From Bacteroidaceae bacterium (GTDB lineage: Bacteria; Bacteroidota; Bacteroidia; Bacteroidales; Barnesiellaceae_A), in assembly GCA_017555825.1 (NCBI GenBank), contig JAFZFQ010000021.1, positions 1 through 64,000 of the forward strand: a stretch of 64,000 nucleotides of DNA, written 5' to 3'. Shown here one piece after another: positions 27,267 to 36,315 of this stretch. Both the position numbers and the translations under genes were made by a program. The stretch's first letter is position 1, and each line of letters opens with the position of its first letter. The notes below the pieces were generated by a model that was not told the DNA's origin, did not search any database, and worked only from the letters and a program-made list of their open reading frames with translations.

Positions 27267-28265
27267 TTATTTCACTGTAACGCCACCGGCACTTACCTTT
27301 ACGACTTCCTTGCCATTCTCTTTCACCACTACACCGGTAGGAGTTACCTGTACAGAGGTCTCGCCATCTTCTACATACACACCAGAGGGCGAAATGTCTA
27401 CTTTTTCGCCATCGGCACCATCTACACGCACACTATTGAGCGAGATGTCTACTTTTTCGCCATCCTCGCCTACTATGCTCATAGAGGTCAAAGCGTCATC
27501 GGCCTCAGCGACATCCTCTTTGAGCTTCACTTGCATTACACAGTCGTTGGCAACGGCCTTGTCATTACACTCTTTGTTCCACGACACCACTCCCATGTTC
27601 GAGTCGCTCAGCTCGATAGAGTCGCAAGTGCCATCAACCGATAGAGCACCGATGTTGCTATCTACCACAACAAGGGCAGTAGCATTACCTGCGATCTTGG
27701 CAGCGCCTATACTTGAGTCGTGTATAGCCACACCCTTGCGACTATCGTTTCGTTTTGTCATCATTGCCCCCACACTACAATCTTCTATAAGCAATGCGCC
27801 ATGAGTAGAGGCATGCACAGCTCCCATCTCGGCATGGTTGAAGCGCAACTCTACAGAGTCGAAAGGATTGTCTATCTTCAGCGTACTATTGTCGGGCAAC
27901 TCAACTGTGAGAATGAGGCCATCGCCCTCGGGCTTCTTGAGATCATCGAGATTGAGAACGATAGAGTCGCCTATAAGCTCGGCACGTACACCCTCTACAG
28001 GAGCAACGAAGTTGACCGAATGGAGCGAATCGACAGTACCACGGTAGGTTGTAACATACATATAACAATGGGGAACAGGCTGTGACGATACGACCGACAT
28101 CTTGTATTCATACATACTGCCTCTATCGGTATCGACCGATTCGACAACTTCGGCAATCCACTCTTTGAACGAGGGCATCTTATTTATCACAGTAACAATG
28201 TATATAATGGGCGCTACGATAACGAGGAGGAGTAGCGCAACGAGTAATATAGTGGAACGTTTCAT
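27267..28265 (-). CDS. Membrane-anchored repeat protein, probable beta-solenoid
   Basis: A 332-residue protein from the ATG at 28265, chosen because the hydrophobic anchor (MKRSTILLVALLLLVIVAPI) starts there; a longer frame would overlap the GntR gene. The middle (about 155-235) repeats a DSN/S-(I/M)-GA-x-x-x-x-G unit every 20-21 residues (HDSSIGAAKIAG, VDSNIGALSVDG, SDSNMGVVSW), as in right-handed beta-helix or DUF2807/DUF4097-like adhesin-head domains. The last 68 residues are four copies of a 16-17-residue repeat ending in GV-x-V. It has an extracytoplasmic location by topology. Function is not known to me; the context suggests a part of an envelope-stress or exporter module. Confidence 0.7.
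   Translation of the reverse strand: MKRSTILLVALLLLVIVAPIIYIVTVINKMPSFKEWIAEVVESVDTDRGSMYEYKMSVVSSQPVPHCYMYVTTYRGTVDSLHSVNFVAPVEGVRAELIGDSIVLNLDDLKKPEGDGLILTVELPDNSTLKIDNPFDSVELRFNHAEMGAVHASTHGALLIEDCSVGAMMTKRNDSRKGVAIHDSSIGAAKIAGNATALVVVDSNIGALSVDGTCDSIELSDSNMGVVSWNKECNDKAVANDCVMQVKLKEDVAEADDALTSMSIVGEDGEKVDISLNSVRVDGADGEKVDISPSGVYVEDGETSVQVTPTGVVVKENGKEVVKVSAGGVTVK
27270..27473 (-). repeat. Four 16-17-residue tandem protein repeats at a C-terminus
   Basis: Coding repeats within the protein at 27267-28265. Units are of the form (D/N)G-E/K-x-V-x-(I/V)-(S/T)-x-x-(G/S)V-x-V, e.g. DGEKVDISLNSVRVD, DGEKVDISPSGVYVE, DGETSVQVTPTGVVVK, NGKEVVKVSAGGVTVK. The first two are nearly identical in DNA as well (CATCGGCACCATCT region and the CTACTTTTTCGCCATC segment appearing twice near 27400 and 27455). 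Confidence 0.75.
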
Positions 28266-28284
28266 AAAAATTGTTTTTATAGGT

Positions 28285-28659
28285 TTATTTGTTAGACTGT
28301 TGTGAGAGGTACTCGGTATAGTGGGCATCTATCTCTGCTACCGAGATACCCAGCGTCGATAGTCGATTGAAAAAGAGGGGCAACTCGTCGCTAAAGAAAC
28401 GCTTGCGACGTATCTCCTTGATGCGGTATTTACCCTCGGGCGATACATAGTAGCCTATACCACGCTTGTTGAAGATGATTTCTTGTTGCTGCAACCACTC
28501 GTATGAGCGCACAACAGTATTGGCATTGACCTCAACGAGCGCAGCATATTCGCGTATAGAGGGTATGCGCTCGCCGGGCGGAAACTTATTGTCGAGTATC
28601 TCATCGCAAATGCGCTCGGCTATTTGCAGATAGATAGAAAGATTATCGCGAAATATCAT
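28285..28659 (-). CDS. GntR-family transcriptional regulator, YtrA type
   Basis: A 124-residue regulator: an N-terminal winged helix (about 8-72, with IYLQIAERICDEILDNKF and PSIREYAALVEVNANTVVRS) and only a short C-terminal tail, which is the YtrA subfamily layout used to regulate ABC transporter operons. It lies between the membrane subunit (7 bases upstream) and the repeat protein (19 bases downstream), so it is probably autoregulated with the whole run. In Firmicutes the YtrA regulator usually opens such operons; here it is third. Confidence 0.9.
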   Translation of the reverse strand: MIFRDNLSIYLQIAERICDEILDNKFPPGERIPSIREYAALVEVNANTVVRSYEWLQQQEIIFNKRGIGYYVSPEGKYRIKEIRRKRFFSDELPLFFNRLSTLGISVAEIDAHYTEYLSQQSNK

Positions 28660-28666
28660 AAGGCGC

Positions 28667-29419
28667 TTACTTTTTGGTTTCGTTTACCTCCATCTCCGAT
28701 ATGCGCAAGTAGGCCACACCAAGATAGAGAATAGTTACTATAACAGACATGACAATAACGAAGTTACCTCCTGCATCATTTACTGTATTAAAGTTCTCGA
28801 AGTTGGTAAACGCACCTACCGAGAAGGCATGCATACCTATAGCCACCGACATGAGTCCACCGAAAACGAAGCTAAGAACCAAAGCCAAGGCGGTGGTTTT
28901 GAGGAATGTATGGCGAGTAAAGATTGTTGCACCCATCAGGTAGAAAGCCGAAGAGCCCATATATGACAATGCATATAAGCCAAGATACGAGGCATCAACT
29001 TCGATACCGGCATAGGGCCATTGGAAATGAGGCCATGAGAGTGTAAAGAGGGCGGTAATGAACATAGCTGCATACTGGGCAACGAATAGCGATACTACAA
29101 ACATGAGCGGAACCACTACATAAAGATGAAATACCATTGCCAAGAGTTTTTCGAGTGTCGATACAGGTGTGAGCAAGAACTTAATCTTATTGGCACGAAG
29201 CGAAAACATGCTGCTCATGCGCGACGCAGATACGAGGGCAAAGATGAACATAGCAGGAGTGATAACTCCATAGAACGATATTACACCTCCAGTTAGACAC
29301 ATAATGGCAGTGAAGATACCTGTAAGGACAAAGAATTGCAACTGCAAACTGCGATACTCCGAGAAATACTTACCGATATATGAGCCGAAACGCTTGAGTG
29401 AGAATATTTGATTTTCCAT
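28667..29419 (-). CDS. ABC-transporter-type membrane subunit
   Basis: A 250-residue integral membrane protein with about six hydrophobic helices (near 32-55, 60-80, 105-135, 150-172, 178-200, 222-242). It has no recognised permease signature, but it lies 20 bases after an ABC ATPase and before a YtrA-type regulator, which is the normal setting for an ABC-2-like membrane partner in Bacteroidota. The EKLLAMVFHLYVVVPL segment resembles the coupling region of ABC-2 permeases. It is probably a half-transporter forming a complex with the ATPase. Confidence 0.72.
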   Translation of the reverse strand: MENQIFSLKRFGSYIGKYFSEYRSLQLQFFVLTGIFTAIMCLTGGVISFYGVITPAMFIFALVSASRMSSMFSLRANKIKFLLTPVSTLEKLLAMVFHLYVVVPLMFVVSLFVAQYAAMFITALFTLSWPHFQWPYAGIEVDASYLGLYALSYMGSSAFYLMGATIFTRHTFLKTTALALVLSFVFGGLMSVAIGMHAFSVGAFTNFENFNTVNDAGGNFVIVMSVIVTILYLGVAYLRISEMEVNETKK

Positions 29420-29439
29420 AACAATAGTGCGATAAAAGG

Positions 29440-30273
29440 TTAGACAAAAAGTTGCTTGATGGCTTGCGGATTGGCAACAACGCTATTGAAGAGAGTCTCC
29501 AAATCAACGGCTGTATCGACATCGTCGAGATTGGGACGCACACCCACAAAACCCTCGGGGGTAAATGTCGAGTAAATGCAACCTTGCAAGTCATCCTTTG
29601 AAGTGGTGCGTATAAACTCCAACTTACGAGCTATATCGACAACACTCTCGTTGAGTATCATTGTATTGTCGTGCAAGAGCAAGACGCGATCTATCATACT
29701 CTCCAAGTCGCGTACCTGGTGGGTCGAGATAATGATACTGCGCTCGTCGCTCATGCCCAGAGCTATGACCTTGCGGAATTGGCTCTTTGAGGGTATGTCC
29801 ATGCCATTGGTAGGCTCGTCCATAAAGAGCAAAGGCACATTGGTAGCAAGGGCGAAGCTGACAATAAATTTTTTCTTCTGTCCCATTGAATATTGCGAGA
29901 GTTTCTTGACAGCAGGCAGCTCAAATATTTGCATATAGTTGTCGAACTGCTCACGGCTGAAGCGAGGGTAGAACATTGCATTGTTCTTTACATATACATC
30001 GATCGACACCTCGGGCAAATCGAACTCCTCGGGCAAGAGGTATATATTGCTCAACAACTCGGGAGTGCGCTTGCGCGAAGGAATACCCTCTATGGTAACG
30101 GAACCTATTTGGGGATACATAAGACCGGTCATCAAGTAGAGCAAGGTAGACTTGCCACTGCCATTCTTACCCAATAGACCATATACACCACCGGGAGTAA
30201 TTTCAAAATTGACCTTGTGGAGCAAATACTCGTTGCGTCGATACGAGAATGCCATATTTTCTACTTTCAGCAT
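29440..30273 (-). CDS. ABC transporter ATP-binding protein
   Basis: A 277-residue ATPase. Walker A is LLGKNGSGKSTLLYLMTG (about residues 34-51), the signature is SQYSMGQKKKF in a slightly degenerate form (SMGQK for LSGGQ), Walker B is LLFMDEPTNGMD and the switch His lies in IIISTHQVRDLE. This is the YtrB/CcmA-like single-domain type working with an ABC-2 membrane protein. It is the first gene of the five-gene minus-strand run and is preceded by a good promoter at 30373-30403. Confidence 0.92.
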   Translation of the reverse strand: MLKVENMAFSYRRNEYLLHKVNFEITPGGVYGLLGKNGSGKSTLLYLMTGLMYPQIGSVTIEGIPSRKRTPELLSNIYLLPEEFDLPEVSIDVYVKNNAMFYPRFSREQFDNYMQIFELPAVKKLSQYSMGQKKKFIVSFALATNVPLLFMDEPTNGMDIPSKSQFRKVIALGMSDERSIIISTHQVRDLESMIDRVLLLHDNTMILNESVVDIARKLEFIRTTSKDDLQGCIYSTFTPEGFVGVRPNLDDVDTAVDLETLFNSVVANPQAIKQLFV

Positions 30274-30372
30274 ATTACGTTTTATTTATGGGTTAATACT
30301 CTTCTATTTTTCTATTGCAACAACACTCGACCGAAGCGATGTGTTTGGGTGTATTAGTTTAATAGTACACTG

Positions 30373-30403
30373 CAAATGTATATAATTTTGTGATACGCTC
30401 AAA
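30373..30403 (-). promoter_or_regulatory. Promoter of the ABC-GntR-barrel operon
   Basis: On the minus strand TTTG (30403-30400) and TACATTTG (30380-30373) are 19 bases apart, an excellent Bacteroidota promoter. It predicts a leader of about 90 bases before the ATPase ATG at 30273. The GntR regulator of the operon would be expected to bind near here, but no clear palindrome is seen. Confidence 0.7.
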
Positions 30404-30519
30404 AAAAAATCGCAAAAATTTTCGACTTTTTTGCTTTTTTCTTCAACATGTAGTAATTTTACCCTGGAATAAAAGAGATATAATCTCCACACACATTATT
30501 AAATATAAAACATACGATT

Positions 30520-30846
30520 ATGAGCCAAGACAACGATTTCTTTTCATTCGACGACGACAAAGCAGTAGAATTTATCCGTCCTCGCCTACCCCAAGAGATA
30601 CAAGATAAGTATAGCGACAATGAGATTATCTACATTGGCGATATTGTGTATGACTACTACGAGACCAAAGGTTTCTTTGATGAGAGCAACAACGACGACA
30701 TAGACCTCGACGTAGACGACTTGATAGATTTTGTGCGCAAGTGCCTCAAGAAAGATACAGAAGCCGAGTATGCCGATGAGGATATCGAATTCCTCGTTCG
30801 TGGCGAGCTTGACTATGAAGAGCACTTAGGCATGTGGGAGGCGTAA
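30520..30846 (+). CDS. Small acidic protein of unknown function
   Basis: A 108-residue, strongly acidic cytoplasmic protein with no signal peptide or membrane segment. It is rich in Asp/Glu and Tyr, with an SFDDDKAVEFIRPRLP start, a central DESNNDDIDLDVDDL stretch and a C-terminal EEHLGMWEA. I recognise no domain. It lies 7 bases before the OmpA-like gene, so is probably cotranscribed. Similar short acidic proteins are widespread in Bacteroidales, but I know of no assigned function. The length, regular codon use and clean spacing support a real gene. Confidence 0.75.
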   Translation: MSQDNDFFSFDDDKAVEFIRPRLPQEIQDKYSDNEIIYIGDIVYDYYETKGFFDESNNDDIDLDVDDLIDFVRKCLKKDTEAEYADEDIEFLVRGELDYEEHLGMWEA

Positions 30847-30853
30847 TATAGGA

Positions 30854-31513
30854 ATGAAGAAAAGCAATATTATTATAGCCCTACTGGCAGGTATATCGTT
30901 TACTTGCATGCCCCTCGTGGCTACAGCCCAGAGCAATTGGATAGAAAAACTGTTTGGACGCAAAGATACCACCCAGGTAGCCGAGGCACAACACCCCAAC
31001 CTATCGGAGCTTACTGTAGACGAGAACCTGCTCATTCCCGAAATAGGCAAGAGACAGAAAGAAAAGGTGTGCAAGTTGCAAGCCACCGAAGCCAAGAGAC
31101 TGAGCGCAGTAGAGGGCATAGAAATAGAATTGACACGCGACGATGAGGTAATACACATCACCATTGCTGCATCGCGACTCTTTGCACCCAACGAAACCAC
31201 TCTGCTTGACTCGTCGGATGCACTATTACGCTCGCTGCTGCCATGCTTGCGCACACCCGATTACTACCATGTGCTGCTGGTAATGCACAGCGACAACACG
31301 GGTAACGAAAGCTACAACTATGCCCTCACCACCGACCGCGTATCGGCCATATACGACTGGATGGAGCAGAACGGTGGCTGTGTAGAATATGTAGTACCCT
31401 ATGCCGCCGGCAGTTACGAGCCCAAGACGTCCAACAATACTATTGCCGGCCGCGCCAAGAATCGTCGCTTGGAAATATACCTTATACCCGCCGAAGCGAT
31501 GTTAAAGAAATAA
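30854..31513 (+). CDS. OmpA-like peptidoglycan-binding envelope protein
   Basis: A 219-residue protein with a signal peptide (MKKSNIIIALLAGISFTCMP, cleaved after TAQ) and a C-terminal OmpA-type domain (about 95-215). The domain shows the pattern LFAPNETTLLDSSDALLRSL, HSDNTGNESYNYALTTDRVSA and AGRAKNRRLEIYLIP, where the Asp and the conserved Arg residues form the diaminopimelate-binding pocket. No beta-barrel precedes it, only a linker of about 65 residues, so it is probably periplasmic. It ends 2 bases before the next gene. Confidence 0.82.
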   Translation: MKKSNIIIALLAGISFTCMPLVATAQSNWIEKLFGRKDTTQVAEAQHPNLSELTVDENLLIPEIGKRQKEKVCKLQATEAKRLSAVEGIEIELTRDDEVIHITIAASRLFAPNETTLLDSSDALLRSLLPCLRTPDYYHVLLVMHSDNTGNESYNYALTTDRVSAIYDWMEQNGGCVEYVVPYAAGSYEPKTSNNTIAGRAKNRRLEIYLIPAEAMLKK

Positions 31514-31515
31514 AA

Positions 31516-33426
31516 ATGAATAACAAAAAGAGAGCTTATACATCCCGTACAATCAGCATTTTACTCTTATCTTTTTTGATTGGAGTAAATGCTTGTGTTG
31601 CCAAAGCACAAGAGACACTACAGGTTATAACCGACTATGCACCCTTTGCACTTTTTAATAAAGTAAACACCTCGAAATCGGGCTATCAGACACCCGAGGA
31701 GCTAAAAAAAGAGTGGCACATCTACGCTGTACGACGAGGCACTGAGGTGGTTGCTTTAGGATATGACAGCAATGAAGCATTGTTGAGGGTAAAATTGCCC
31801 GATGGCAGTATAGGCTACATGCCCACCGTGTCGTTTGCTTTGGGTAGTACGTTCATTAACACAAAGGAGTTTGGCAATTATCCTACCGGCCAATACACAC
31901 TCATTGGTGTGGGTGCTATGGAGTACATGAAAACGGCAGATCAAACTCCCCCTGTACAGCCCGACAATTATTACATTCAACACGAAAGTGGTACCAAGTA
32001 CACTATCCCCACTAATAGCCTAATAAAAATCGAGGGACAACTTCGATTTGTCAACTGGGATGGAGCATCAATATTTGAAGGCTTTTACAATCAACATCCC
32101 CAAATTCACGAAATACCCGACAGAAATGATAAATCAGTGAATTTCAAGCTAAAGGATGGAGAACTTCCTATTGCTTATTTGGGTTGTTCTCGCTCATATA
32201 TCGAATCGGTATTGGGCGAGCCATACAGCTACGCCGGGCCTGCTATAAGTCAATATAGGGGTTATACCTTCTCGTGTCACAACAATGTTGCATGGGATAC
32301 ATCGGTAAGCAAGGGCAACGACGCAGCAGGTCTTATCATCTACTACGACGAGAACCTACGTGCTGTCTACATGGAGAAGAAGCCTATCGCTTGGTATTAC
32401 GACGACATCTTTACCAAACTGTTTGTACCCGGCCATCCCGTTGACACGATTCAACCCGACATTGCCGAGAAGATAGCACAATCGGAAGATGTTAGAGGCT
32501 ACTATTACAACTACAATGCACAACCCGTGCAAGAGATTTATACTGCGCCTAGCACACTCGACCGCCTATATATAGGCGCGATGTATTTTGTAGAAAACAC
32601 ATTGGGTATAAGAAACATGTGGCTCATAGCACTCGTTATGGTCGTGTTGGAATACATCTTGATGATACCCGCCTACTTAGCCAAAAGAGCCAAAGACAAG
32701 ATACCGGGTTGGATACTGAGAATATTGGCACTCTTGCTTACCATTCCGTTTACAATATATCCCGTTGCGTATGTTTTACGATTTCACTTTATCCTAGCGG
32801 CATTGGCCTTACTCTTTATAATCGGACCTCCATTAATGATTTTATTGGATATATTTGCAAGCACTCAGAAGTTCCGATGCAAGAAGTGCAATACATGGCA
32901 CAAAAAGTTCAATTTATTGCATTTCGAGGAGTTGGATCGCTACTTTACCGCGCCCGAAATTAGATTTGACACCCAAAGGCAGGTATTCAGCAAGCGCAAC
33001 GGTGGCTATTCGGGTAGCACATGGGTGTCGACAAGCGACCGAGGTTACAACTATAAAACGACGGTTGACTTAGTGAAAATAATGCGATTCAGATACCAAT
33101 GCCCCAACTGCCACCATGAGTGGGAAACGAACGGAGAAAGTCCAAGGACTCTTCCCGGACCTATATGCTTCACCGGCCATGTAACCACCAAACATGAGTG
33201 GAAAGAGACCGAGGTGAAGAAAACCCGCTACAAACTGGATGGCACCGTAATACACGAAGAAGAAGAGTCAAGAGATGTTACTCGTAGCAGTAGCGGTAGC
33301 AGCAGTTCGAGAAGATTTGATACAGAACGATACAACCAATATGTGCGCCGTTTCCAAAGAGAGAACGACATCAATATTTTATATAAATATGAGTCGGAAT
33401 TCTACGGTAACTATTTTGGTGAATGA
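31516..33426 (+). CDS. Unrecognised secreted/membrane protein with split CxxC zinc ribbon
   Basis: A 636-residue protein of unknown function. It begins with a signal peptide or anchor (about 12-30, ending AKA-QE), then a long extracytoplasmic region (about 30-360; the part near 65-115 resembles an SH3-like fold, with the block LPDGSIGYMPTVSFALG). Three membrane helices follow (about 368-390, 398-420, 424-450). The C-terminal part is soluble and cytoplasmic by topology, with CKKCNTWHKKF and CPNCHHEW spaced about 80 residues apart, which could make one treble-clef or rubredoxin-like zinc site; the tail has a serine-rich stretch (SSSGSSSSRRFDTERYN). Codon use is less biased than in neighbours. 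It sits 2 bases after the OmpA-like gene. Confidence 0.65.
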   Translation: MNNKKRAYTSRTISILLLSFLIGVNACVAKAQETLQVITDYAPFALFNKVNTSKSGYQTPEELKKEWHIYAVRRGTEVVALGYDSNEALLRVKLPDGSIGYMPTVSFALGSTFINTKEFGNYPTGQYTLIGVGAMEYMKTADQTPPVQPDNYYIQHESGTKYTIPTNSLIKIEGQLRFVNWDGASIFEGFYNQHPQIHEIPDRNDKSVNFKLKDGELPIAYLGCSRSYIESVLGEPYSYAGPAISQYRGYTFSCHNNVAWDTSVSKGNDAAGLIIYYDENLRAVYMEKKPIAWYYDDIFTKLFVPGHPVDTIQPDIAEKIAQSEDVRGYYYNYNAQPVQEIYTAPSTLDRLYIGAMYFVENTLGIRNMWLIALVMVVLEYILMIPAYLAKRAKDKIPGWILRILALLLTIPFTIYPVAYVLRFHFILAALALLFIIGPPLMILLDIFASTQKFRCKKCNTWHKKFNLLHFEELDRYFTAPEIRFDTQRQVFSKRNGGYSGSTWVSTSDRGYNYKTTVDLVKIMRFRYQCPNCHHEWETNGESPRTLPGPICFTGHVTTKHEWKETEVKKTRYKLDGTVIHEEEESRDVTRSSSGSSSSRRFDTERYNQYVRRFQRENDINILYKYESEFYGNYFGE

Positions 33427-33469
33427 CGACTTAACAACAATGATTTATAAACATCTAAAATAATTACAA

Positions 33470-35248
33470 ATGAAAAAGTTTTTTAAAACCACCTTTGCGT
33501 GCGTGTTAGGAACACTCATCGCAGGACTTATCTTAATGATAATATTCATCGTAATGATGATAGGAACTGCCGCAAGCACCATATCAAGCGAAAAGCCCTA
33601 TATCAGTCAAGAGAACACTGTGTTGCACCTCGACCTCACCACAGTGCAAGAGCGATATGAAGAAGATGTAAACTTCGATCCTATGTCATTGCTCAACAAA
33701 GGAGACGATGACACATCGGTAGGTCTCGACCAAATACGCAAAGCGTTGGAAATTGCTGCCAACGACAACAACATTGTGGGTATATACATCGACGCTAAAG
33801 GCATATCGGCTATGCCGGCCTCTATAGAACAAATACGCAGCTTGTTGGTAGAGTTCAAGGAGAAAAGCGGAAAATGGATATACTCATACGCCGACAACTA
33901 CACTCAAGGCGACTATATCCTTGCATCGGTAGCCGACACCGTTATACTCAACCCCATTGGTAGTGTCGATATTCATGGCTTGGGTGGTACACAAATGTTC
34001 TTCCCCCTCGCGTTAAAGAAATTGGGCGTTGAAATGAAGATTTTCCGTGTGGGCACATACAAATCGGCTGTTGAACCTTACATGTGCGAGAAGATGAGCG
34101 ATGCCAATCGTGAACAAACACTTGCCTACCTCAACACTATTTGGGACACCTACACCACTGCTGTTACCGCCTCTCGTGGATTTAGCGCCGAGCATTTCAA
34201 CAACATTGCCAACTCTATTACTTCATATCTCCCCACCGAAGAGATACTCGCAATGAACCTCGTCGATACGCTCATGTACCGTCCCCAATTCAACGAATGG
34301 CTCAAAGCCAAGGTAGGTATTGCCGATGATAAAGAGATAAACTTTGCCAGCGCTGCCGAACTTGCATCGACAGTAGTAGACACCAACAAATCGAAAAATA
34401 CCATTGCTGTGGTATACGCTGTAGGCGACATTATGGAGAGTGGTGGTGGCATCAATAGCGACGACCTCGTTCCCGAATTGACCAAGCTACGCAAAGACGA
34501 GAATATCAAGGCCATTGTATTGCGCGTGAATTCTCCCGGTGGTAGCGCATACGCATCGGAGCAAATATGGGCCGAACTCGAAGCAATAAAAGCTGCCGGC
34601 AAGAAACTTGTTGTATCTATGAGCGACATGGCGGCATCGGGTGGTTACTACATATCGTCCGGCGCCGACTACATCTTTGCCGAGAATACAACTCTCACCG
34701 GCTCGATAGGTGTATTTGGAACAATGCCCGTTGCCAAAGAGTTGGCACAAGACAAATTGGGATTGCGATTTGATGGCGCTTTCACTCACAATGGCAGCAA
34801 TCCTCTCAACGGCGAATTCCTCTACTGCGGAATTAAGGATAACGAAGCTATGGCTATACAACGCTCTGTTGAATCGACATACGACCTCTTCACTCGCCGT
34901 TGCGCCGAGGGTCGTGGCATGAGCCAAGACGACATTAAGAAAATTGCCGAAGGTCGTGTGTGGGTTGGTAAAACCGCTGTTGAAATAGGTCTTGTAGACG
35001 AAATTGGTAGCATCGAGGAAGCCATTGCATACGCTGCAAAAATAAGCGAACTCGAAGACTATAAAGTTGCAAACTATCCTGCAACAAAGAGCAAATTTGA
35101 GAAACTCATGGAGAGCTTTGGCAACATGACACGTGCCAACATTGCTTCTTGGGTGCTTGGTGAGGATTTTGAATACCTCAACGTTCTCAAAGAGATAGAG
35201 AATGTAACCGGCGTACAAGCCCGCATGGATAACATCGTTATTAGATAA
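33470..35248 (+). CDS. sppA: Signal peptide peptidase SppA, long (two-domain) form
   Basis: A 592-residue membrane-bound serine protease with a single N-terminal helix (about 8-32) and tandem S49 domains. The catalytic lysine is Lys198 in VGTYKSAVEPY and the nucleophile Ser390 in MAASGGYYIS, the Ser/Lys dyad of the E. coli-like 67-kDa form. It degrades cleaved signal peptides and other membrane peptides at the periplasmic face. The stop overlaps the lpxK start (TAATG), coupling the two genes, an arrangement common in Bacteroidales. Confidence 0.95.
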   Translation: MKKFFKTTFACVLGTLIAGLILMIIFIVMMIGTAASTISSEKPYISQENTVLHLDLTTVQERYEEDVNFDPMSLLNKGDDDTSVGLDQIRKALEIAANDNNIVGIYIDAKGISAMPASIEQIRSLLVEFKEKSGKWIYSYADNYTQGDYILASVADTVILNPIGSVDIHGLGGTQMFFPLALKKLGVEMKIFRVGTYKSAVEPYMCEKMSDANREQTLAYLNTIWDTYTTAVTASRGFSAEHFNNIANSITSYLPTEEILAMNLVDTLMYRPQFNEWLKAKVGIADDKEINFASAAELASTVVDTNKSKNTIAVVYAVGDIMESGGGINSDDLVPELTKLRKDENIKAIVLRVNSPGGSAYASEQIWAELEAIKAAGKKLVVSMSDMAASGGYYISSGADYIFAENTTLTGSIGVFGTMPVAKELAQDKLGLRFDGAFTHNGSNPLNGEFLYCGIKDNEAMAIQRSVESTYDLFTRRCAEGRGMSQDDIKKIAEGRVWVGKTAVEIGLVDEIGSIEEAIAYAAKISELEDYKVANYPATKSKFEKLMESFGNMTRANIASWVLGEDFEYLNVLKEIENVTGVQARMDNIVIR

Positions 35249-36315
35249 TGTCCTATCGCAAAGAAATACCACATACCTATAAGCCACTGCTACCCTTGGC
35301 TTGGCTATATAGTGCAGGTGTGTGGATGAGAAACAAACTCTTCGACCGAGGAATACTCCCGGTCGAGGAGTTTTCTATTCCCGTCATATCGGTGGGCAAC
35401 CTCACCGTAGGCGGTACGGGTAAGACTCCCATTATAGAATACATTATAGAACTGCTATCGCCACACAAGCGCATAGCCGTACTGAGCAGAGGCTACCGCC
35501 GCAAGAGTAAGGGCTATGTAGAGGCCACTGATGCTTGTACAGTAGCAGATATAGGCGACGAGCCGTTGCAAATATACCGCAAGTACCCCCATATTGTTGT
35601 GGCCGTAGACGGCAACCGTCGACGCGGCATAAGCAACATATTGCAACGCCACCCTGATACAGAAGTAATTCTACTCGACGATGCACATCAACATCGTTAT
35701 GTGCGTCCCTCACTCGCCATTGTATTGTGCGACTACAATCGCCCCATCTATGCCGACTATCCCCTGCCGGCAGGCCGACTGCGCGAGCCTATGAGTGGCT
35801 TGCAACGCGCAGATGCGGTGGTTATTACCAAATGTCCGCATCAACTCTCACATGAAGAATTGGCACACGAGGCCAAGATGTTACACTTCGACAACCAAAA
35901 GCTCTATACGTCTCACATCGCATACGATGCGCCGTACAACATTAAGACAAAAGAGTGCAGTGATATTGCAACAATCACAGCGCAACACAACATCATCATT
36001 CTTACGGGTATTGCCAACCCTGCTCCCATGCAGGAGTACATATCGCACTATACTCGTCGCGTAACGTTGATGCCCTACCCCGATCACCACAACTTCAGCA
36101 AACAGGAGATAGAGAAACTACAGCGCGAAGCTGTTGAGAAAGAAGCCATCATTATCACCACCGAGAAAGATGCCGCACGACTCTACAGCATGAACATAGC
36201 CGACAAGATTGCAGAGCGTTGCTATGTATTACCTGTAAAACACCACCTCCAACACACATCGGAGCAAGTTGATTTTGACAAGCTCATACTACAAGCTGCG
36301 GGTGCGCGCCGATAG
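35248..36315 (+). CDS. lpxK: Tetraacyldisaccharide 4'-kinase LpxK (lipid A)
   Basis: A 355-residue enzyme phosphorylating the 4' position of the lipid A disaccharide at the inner-membrane face. It has the N-terminal amphipathic/membrane segment (about 15-30), the atypical P-loop VGGTGKTP (from Val54), the conserved SRGYRRKSKG motif, and DGNRRRG and DDAHQHRYV blocks. The DDAHQHR motif is slightly different from the usual DDGFQHR. It overlaps sppA by one base. The start at 35248 is fixed by this overlap and the family N-terminus. Confidence 0.93.
   Translation: MSYRKEIPHTYKPLLPLAWLYSAGVWMRNKLFDRGILPVEEFSIPVISVGNLTVGGTGKTPIIEYIIELLSPHKRIAVLSRGYRRKSKGYVEATDACTVADIGDEPLQIYRKYPHIVVAVDGNRRRGISNILQRHPDTEVILLDDAHQHRYVRPSLAIVLCDYNRPIYADYPLPAGRLREPMSGLQRADAVVITKCPHQLSHEELAHEAKMLHFDNQKLYTSHIAYDAPYNIKTKECSDIATITAQHNIIILTGIANPAPMQEYISHYTRRVTLMPYPDHHNFSKQEIEKLQREAVEKEAIIITTEKDAARLYSMNIADKIAERCYVLPVKHHLQHTSEQVDFDKLILQAAGARR

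Follow-up and report, generated by a model that had tools for sequence, protein, structure and literature searches.

A conserved two-gene envelope unit of Bacteroidales and a lineage-restricted membrane protein gene placed beside it

Do three genes that almost touch one another in a single genome form a single functional module? The question arises from a locus in the window (the whole stretch of 64 000 nucleotides that was analysed), in which a gene for a small acidic protein is followed after 7 bases by an OmpA-family gene and this, after 2 bases, by a gene for a 636-residue membrane protein. The initial annotation had placed the three open reading frames in exactly this way, and their coordinates proved accurate. 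The window belongs to a 2.09 Mb draft genome (G000, 91.6% complete) of a family made up of one genus, from which nine genomes were compared. The features of the locus are:

30274–30519, no strand: divergent intergenic region, probably the promoter region of the operon, on consensus matches only
30520–30846, + strand: small acidic all-helical protein, 108 residues, a conserved Bacteroidales family for which no Pfam or NCBIfam model was found
30854–31513, + strand: OmpA-family exported protein, 219 residues, conserved partner of the acidic gene
31516–33426, + strand: lineage-restricted, predicted inner-membrane protein, 636 residues, placed between ompA and sppA
32143–32394, + strand: top-conserved segment of the 636-residue protein (residues 210–293), weakly BamE-like
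33470–35248, + strand: sppA (signal peptide peptidase, S49), which normally follows ompA in this genus
35248–36315, + strand: lpxK (tetraacyldisaccharide 4'-kinase)

The run of same-strand genes extends past position 33426 into sppA and lpxK, and the block upstream is divergent (an ABC transporter, a GntR regulator and a 353-residue protein). Both strands of the putative promoter region carry a TAnnTTTG element resembling the Bacteroidetes −7 box (30383–30390 on the + strand, 30373–30380 on the − strand). PADLOC detected no defence family. The assignment of the locus to the cell envelope held: the 219-residue protein matches the Pfam OmpA family PF00691 over residues 109–204 (E 8e-9; 36.2 bits versus a gathering cut-off of 27.2), even if it stays under every NCBIfam equivalog cut-off, and sppA and lpxK do lie downstream.

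The first two genes are widely associated. In a single-sequence search, relatives of the acidic protein were retrieved from 33 of 198 genomes of the order and from eight of the nine genomes of the genus. At 21 of 30 order-wide loci, distributed over 12 families, an OmpA-family gene follows the acidic gene on the same strand after 6–235 bases, and the two are adjacent in all eight genus genomes that hold the locus. The ninth genome (G003, an 88% complete assembly) contains neither the acidic gene nor sppA; as sppA is absent there too, the locus is probably missing from the assembly. The OmpA partner is of the glycine-zipper type in some families and of the window type in others. The other neighbours of the pair vary across the order (clpB-, topA-, recQ-, recA- and proS-like genes, named by eye), and the pair is therefore the conserved unit. 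The acidic protein itself contains 34 D+E versus 10 K+R, lacks a signal peptide and is modelled as a confident helical bundle (pLDDT 84); against the PDB, Foldseek gave no match at E ≤ 0.001, and the best match (VIA, Z 5.8) is usual for helical bundles. Searching the literature, we found nothing on the acidic–OmpA pair. Taken together, the two genes are a conserved, uncharacterised two-gene envelope unit.

In another Bacteroidales genome the pair is followed by a gene for a 110-residue lipoprotein (L051:6974–7306) that looks BamE-like by eye; this candidate was set aside, having neither a Pfam hit nor a profile match.

The third gene has a far narrower distribution. Genes of the 636-residue type occur in three of the nine genus genomes: the window's own, G006 (79% identity) and G001 (38%). 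Among 393 genomes of the order, matches came only from the own genome and G001; none was found outside the genus in these or in 395 genomes of the phylum, nor in the plasmids, phages and viral contigs searched. A profile search of the 395 phylum genomes added one match, in G416, which is a desaturase-like protein retrieved by chance and not a homologue. A weak match on contig C18 of the own genome, which lay over the helices, was likewise rejected; by eye, this is a membrane protein of CHASE2-like type encoded next to a CHAT-type protease. On that contig (L002, 661–3533) a CHAT-type protease, a CHASE2-like membrane protein and a FecR-like protein, again named by eye, stand in a row unrelated to the locus studied here.

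Placement also differs between the three carriers. In G006, a start codon lies immediately behind ompA on contig C90, which breaks off within 25 codons of it, and contig C305 opens at residue 40 of a 636-type protein and runs on to sppA; across these two contig ends, the arrangement would be the same as in the window. In G001, the homologue (C31:110214–112115) lies 73 kb from the acidic gene (C31:37354), among ubiE/purC-like genes and a glycosyl hydrolase-like gene, and ompA leads directly to sppA with no 636-type gene at the site. The same direct succession is seen in four of the five congeners that have the pair without a 636-type gene (G007, G002, G004 and G008); in the fifth, G005, the contig ends after ompA. 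In G001 and these four congeners the ompA–sppA gap measures about 30–270 bases.

These distributions bear on the proposal of the initial annotation that the three genes could encode an envelope-sensing module, with the acidic protein as candidate adaptor. Spelled out, OmpA would hold the peptidoglycan, the 636-residue protein would carry a signal through the inner membrane, and the acidic protein would be the cytosolic adaptor of the CxxC domain. The near-overlapping spacing of the genes in the window and G006, the matching predicted compartments and the charge of the partners (31 K+R versus 26 D+E in the mildly basic tail, facing a strongly acidic 108-residue protein) speak for it. However, acidic and OmpA genes remain linked across Bacteroidales without the 636-type gene in nearly all relatives, the G001 homologue is unlinked, and only G006 resembles the window, across a contig break. 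Missing linkage in relatives, which the initial annotation had itself named as a refutation, is largely what the comparison shows. Close relatives either lack the 636-type gene or have it at another site, so that the trio is not a conserved module, and a fixed three-protein sensor is improbable. Genes that nearly overlap in a single genome are not for that reason a module: two of these make up the conserved unit, and the third is specific to the lineage. With only 2 bases between it and ompA, a real functional link may nevertheless exist in this lineage.

How, then, did the third gene come to stand where it does? Between G000 and G006, its dN of 0.13 and dS of 1.26 give a dN/dS of about 0.1, and it is therefore under purifying selection rather than a chance open reading frame. 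One history is that the gene was ancestral in the genus and lost in most species, the G001 copy standing either where the gene first was or where it later moved. The full-length architecture common to the G001 and G000/G006 copies would fit such a descent. Against this, no remnant of the gene is recognisable by eye in the ompA–sppA gaps of five congeners, and no homologue is found in the closest family that keeps the synteny (nine genomes); we give this history perhaps a minor but real chance. The preferred reading is that the gene was inserted between ompA and sppA in a lineage-specific event (in G000 and, across the contig break, in G006), although insertion and loss elsewhere are not fully separable, because only three copies are known.

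The ompA–sppA gap of G002, G004 and G008 contains a conserved block, TTATCGAAAAAC-ATATT-TTTATTG ... TTATCTTTG, with one base changed in G008. This block looks like a promoter of sppA's own, and one that was lost where sppA joined the acidic–ompA operon. Neither the window nor its genome as a whole contains it, and sppA in G000, G001, G006 and G007 is therefore probably driven from the acidic–OmpA promoter. Four congeners conserve the signal upstream of sppA: at L046:6433–6704, L048:6218–6457 and L049:5554–5746 as a palindromic TATCGAAAAACGATA with a T-rich stretch and TTATCTTTG behind it (one base changed in G008), and in G005 (L070:589–603) as the palindrome, the part compared there. In addition, gene-by-gene identities of positions 27267–36315 with loci L042, L041 and L045 conflict: SppA is nearest to G006, and OmpA and LpxK are nearest to G007; SppA groups G000 with G006, and the permease groups G006 with G007. 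Such discordance suggests recombination around the 636-type gene, but no transfer is claimed, because synonymous sites are near saturation.

As for what this gene encodes, the initial annotation had described a protein of no known family, and profile searches among genomes, Pfam and the PDB indeed returned none, the PDB searches yielding no significant match. Its proposed anatomy was upheld in part. A signal-like N terminus (about residues 1–31) precedes roughly 330 extracytoplasmic residues (about 32–365), three hydrophobic segments (about 363–390, 396–422 and 422–450, i.e. three transmembrane helices over about 366–450) and the CxxC tail. Positively charged loops follow the first helix (AKRAKDK) and the third (KFRCKKC), and would therefore place the tail in the cytoplasm. 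The SH3-like part, on the other hand, lacks profile support: no SH3 or SH3b family matched at E ≤ 1 in Pfam, either with the whole protein or with residues 28–111, nor did PDB profiles support it, and a low-confidence model has five strands at 69–109. This AlphaFold model of the 636-residue protein, built with three sequences, reached a mean pLDDT of 42 and was kept out of fold searching. Conservation is highest at residues 210–293 (columns averaging 87% identity, with 68% against G001). This block matches BamE weakly in two of the three homologues (best E 0.013) and not in the window member; the BamE-like part is a weak lead.

The tail carries CxxC pairs at 455 (CKKC) and 529 (CPNC), i.e. C455/C458 and C529/C532. 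Two pairs that could bind zinc or respond to redox had been announced, and both are present and conserved, separated by 70 rather than about 80 residues. All four cysteines are kept in the 79% and 38% homologues, with identical spacing in G001 (456/459/530/533); only C254 among the remaining cysteines is common to all three. Preservation of this spacing in the 38% homologue favours one split zinc ribbon, the simplest reading of the tail. Run in isolation against Pfam, the tail gave zinc ribbons as its best matches, with E values of 0.008–0.02, all under cut-off (the top one at E 0.0076, 16.7 versus 34.4 bits); as the cut-off was missed, we file it as zinc-ribbon-like only. The two CxxC motifs could instead constitute a thiol–disulfide redox switch, and the top PDB profile match is a thioredoxin chain (E 0.078). 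This match is not significant, however, and both the sub-threshold zinc-ribbon matches and the CKKC/CPNC/CPHC motifs, at the same inter-pair spacing in the 38% homologue, fit a four-cysteine metal site better, which makes the switch unlikely.

A YNY...CPNC/CPHC stretch is shared with zinc proteins encoded next to hydrogenases (L067:907–1761, L069:1387–2256); in a single comparison, L067 showed 33% identity with the tail over 42 residues beside one CxxC (E 4e-7). These proteins, from G193, G281 and G255, were rejected as homologues and are possible fold analogues only.

Overall, we consider it probable that the locus is a two-gene envelope unit running into sppA–lpxK, with an extra accessory gene gained between ompA and sppA. 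This gene would be expressed from the acidic–ompA–sppA–lpxK transcript, and its product would be an inner-membrane protein. Its extracytoplasmic part may bind a protein or ligand of the envelope, and one structural zinc, bound by C455, C458, C529 and C532, may hold its cytoplasmic tail together. The 636-residue protein would thus be an optional, lineage-specific envelope accessory rather than an obligate partner of the acidic–OmpA pair. A bolder version, in which a new transmembrane zinc-ribbon family can plug into an undescribed Bacteroidales-wide envelope unit and couples the cytosol to the condition of the periplasm, seems to us unlikely. The part most worth laboratory time is the acidic–OmpA pair, which is compact, testable and present in at least 12 Bacteroidales families.

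Compared with known systems, the downstream sppA–lpxK envelope genes follow directly on the same strand and accompany the pair within the genus, without being relatives of the 636-residue protein. The 219-residue protein resembles the YiaD/YfiB/Pal-like members of PF00691 in its HSDNTG...YN..L..DR and GR..NRR.EI pattern; its sequence includes the D and R usual for the motif, and peptidoglycan binding is predicted. It differs from them in having neither a glycine zipper nor a clear lipobox. The tail of the 636-residue protein recalls zinc ribbons of the Zn_ribbon_4/8 type by its two CxxC pairs, but with 70 residues between the knuckles. Its conserved extracytoplasmic block recalls BamE (SmpA/OmlA, PF04355) in a GxSRSYIESVLGEP stretch followed by strands ending in GLIIYYDxNxxAVYMEK, but is sub-threshold and without a PDB profile hit; moreover, BamE is an outer-membrane lipoprotein, whereas the 636-residue protein would be anchored by helices.
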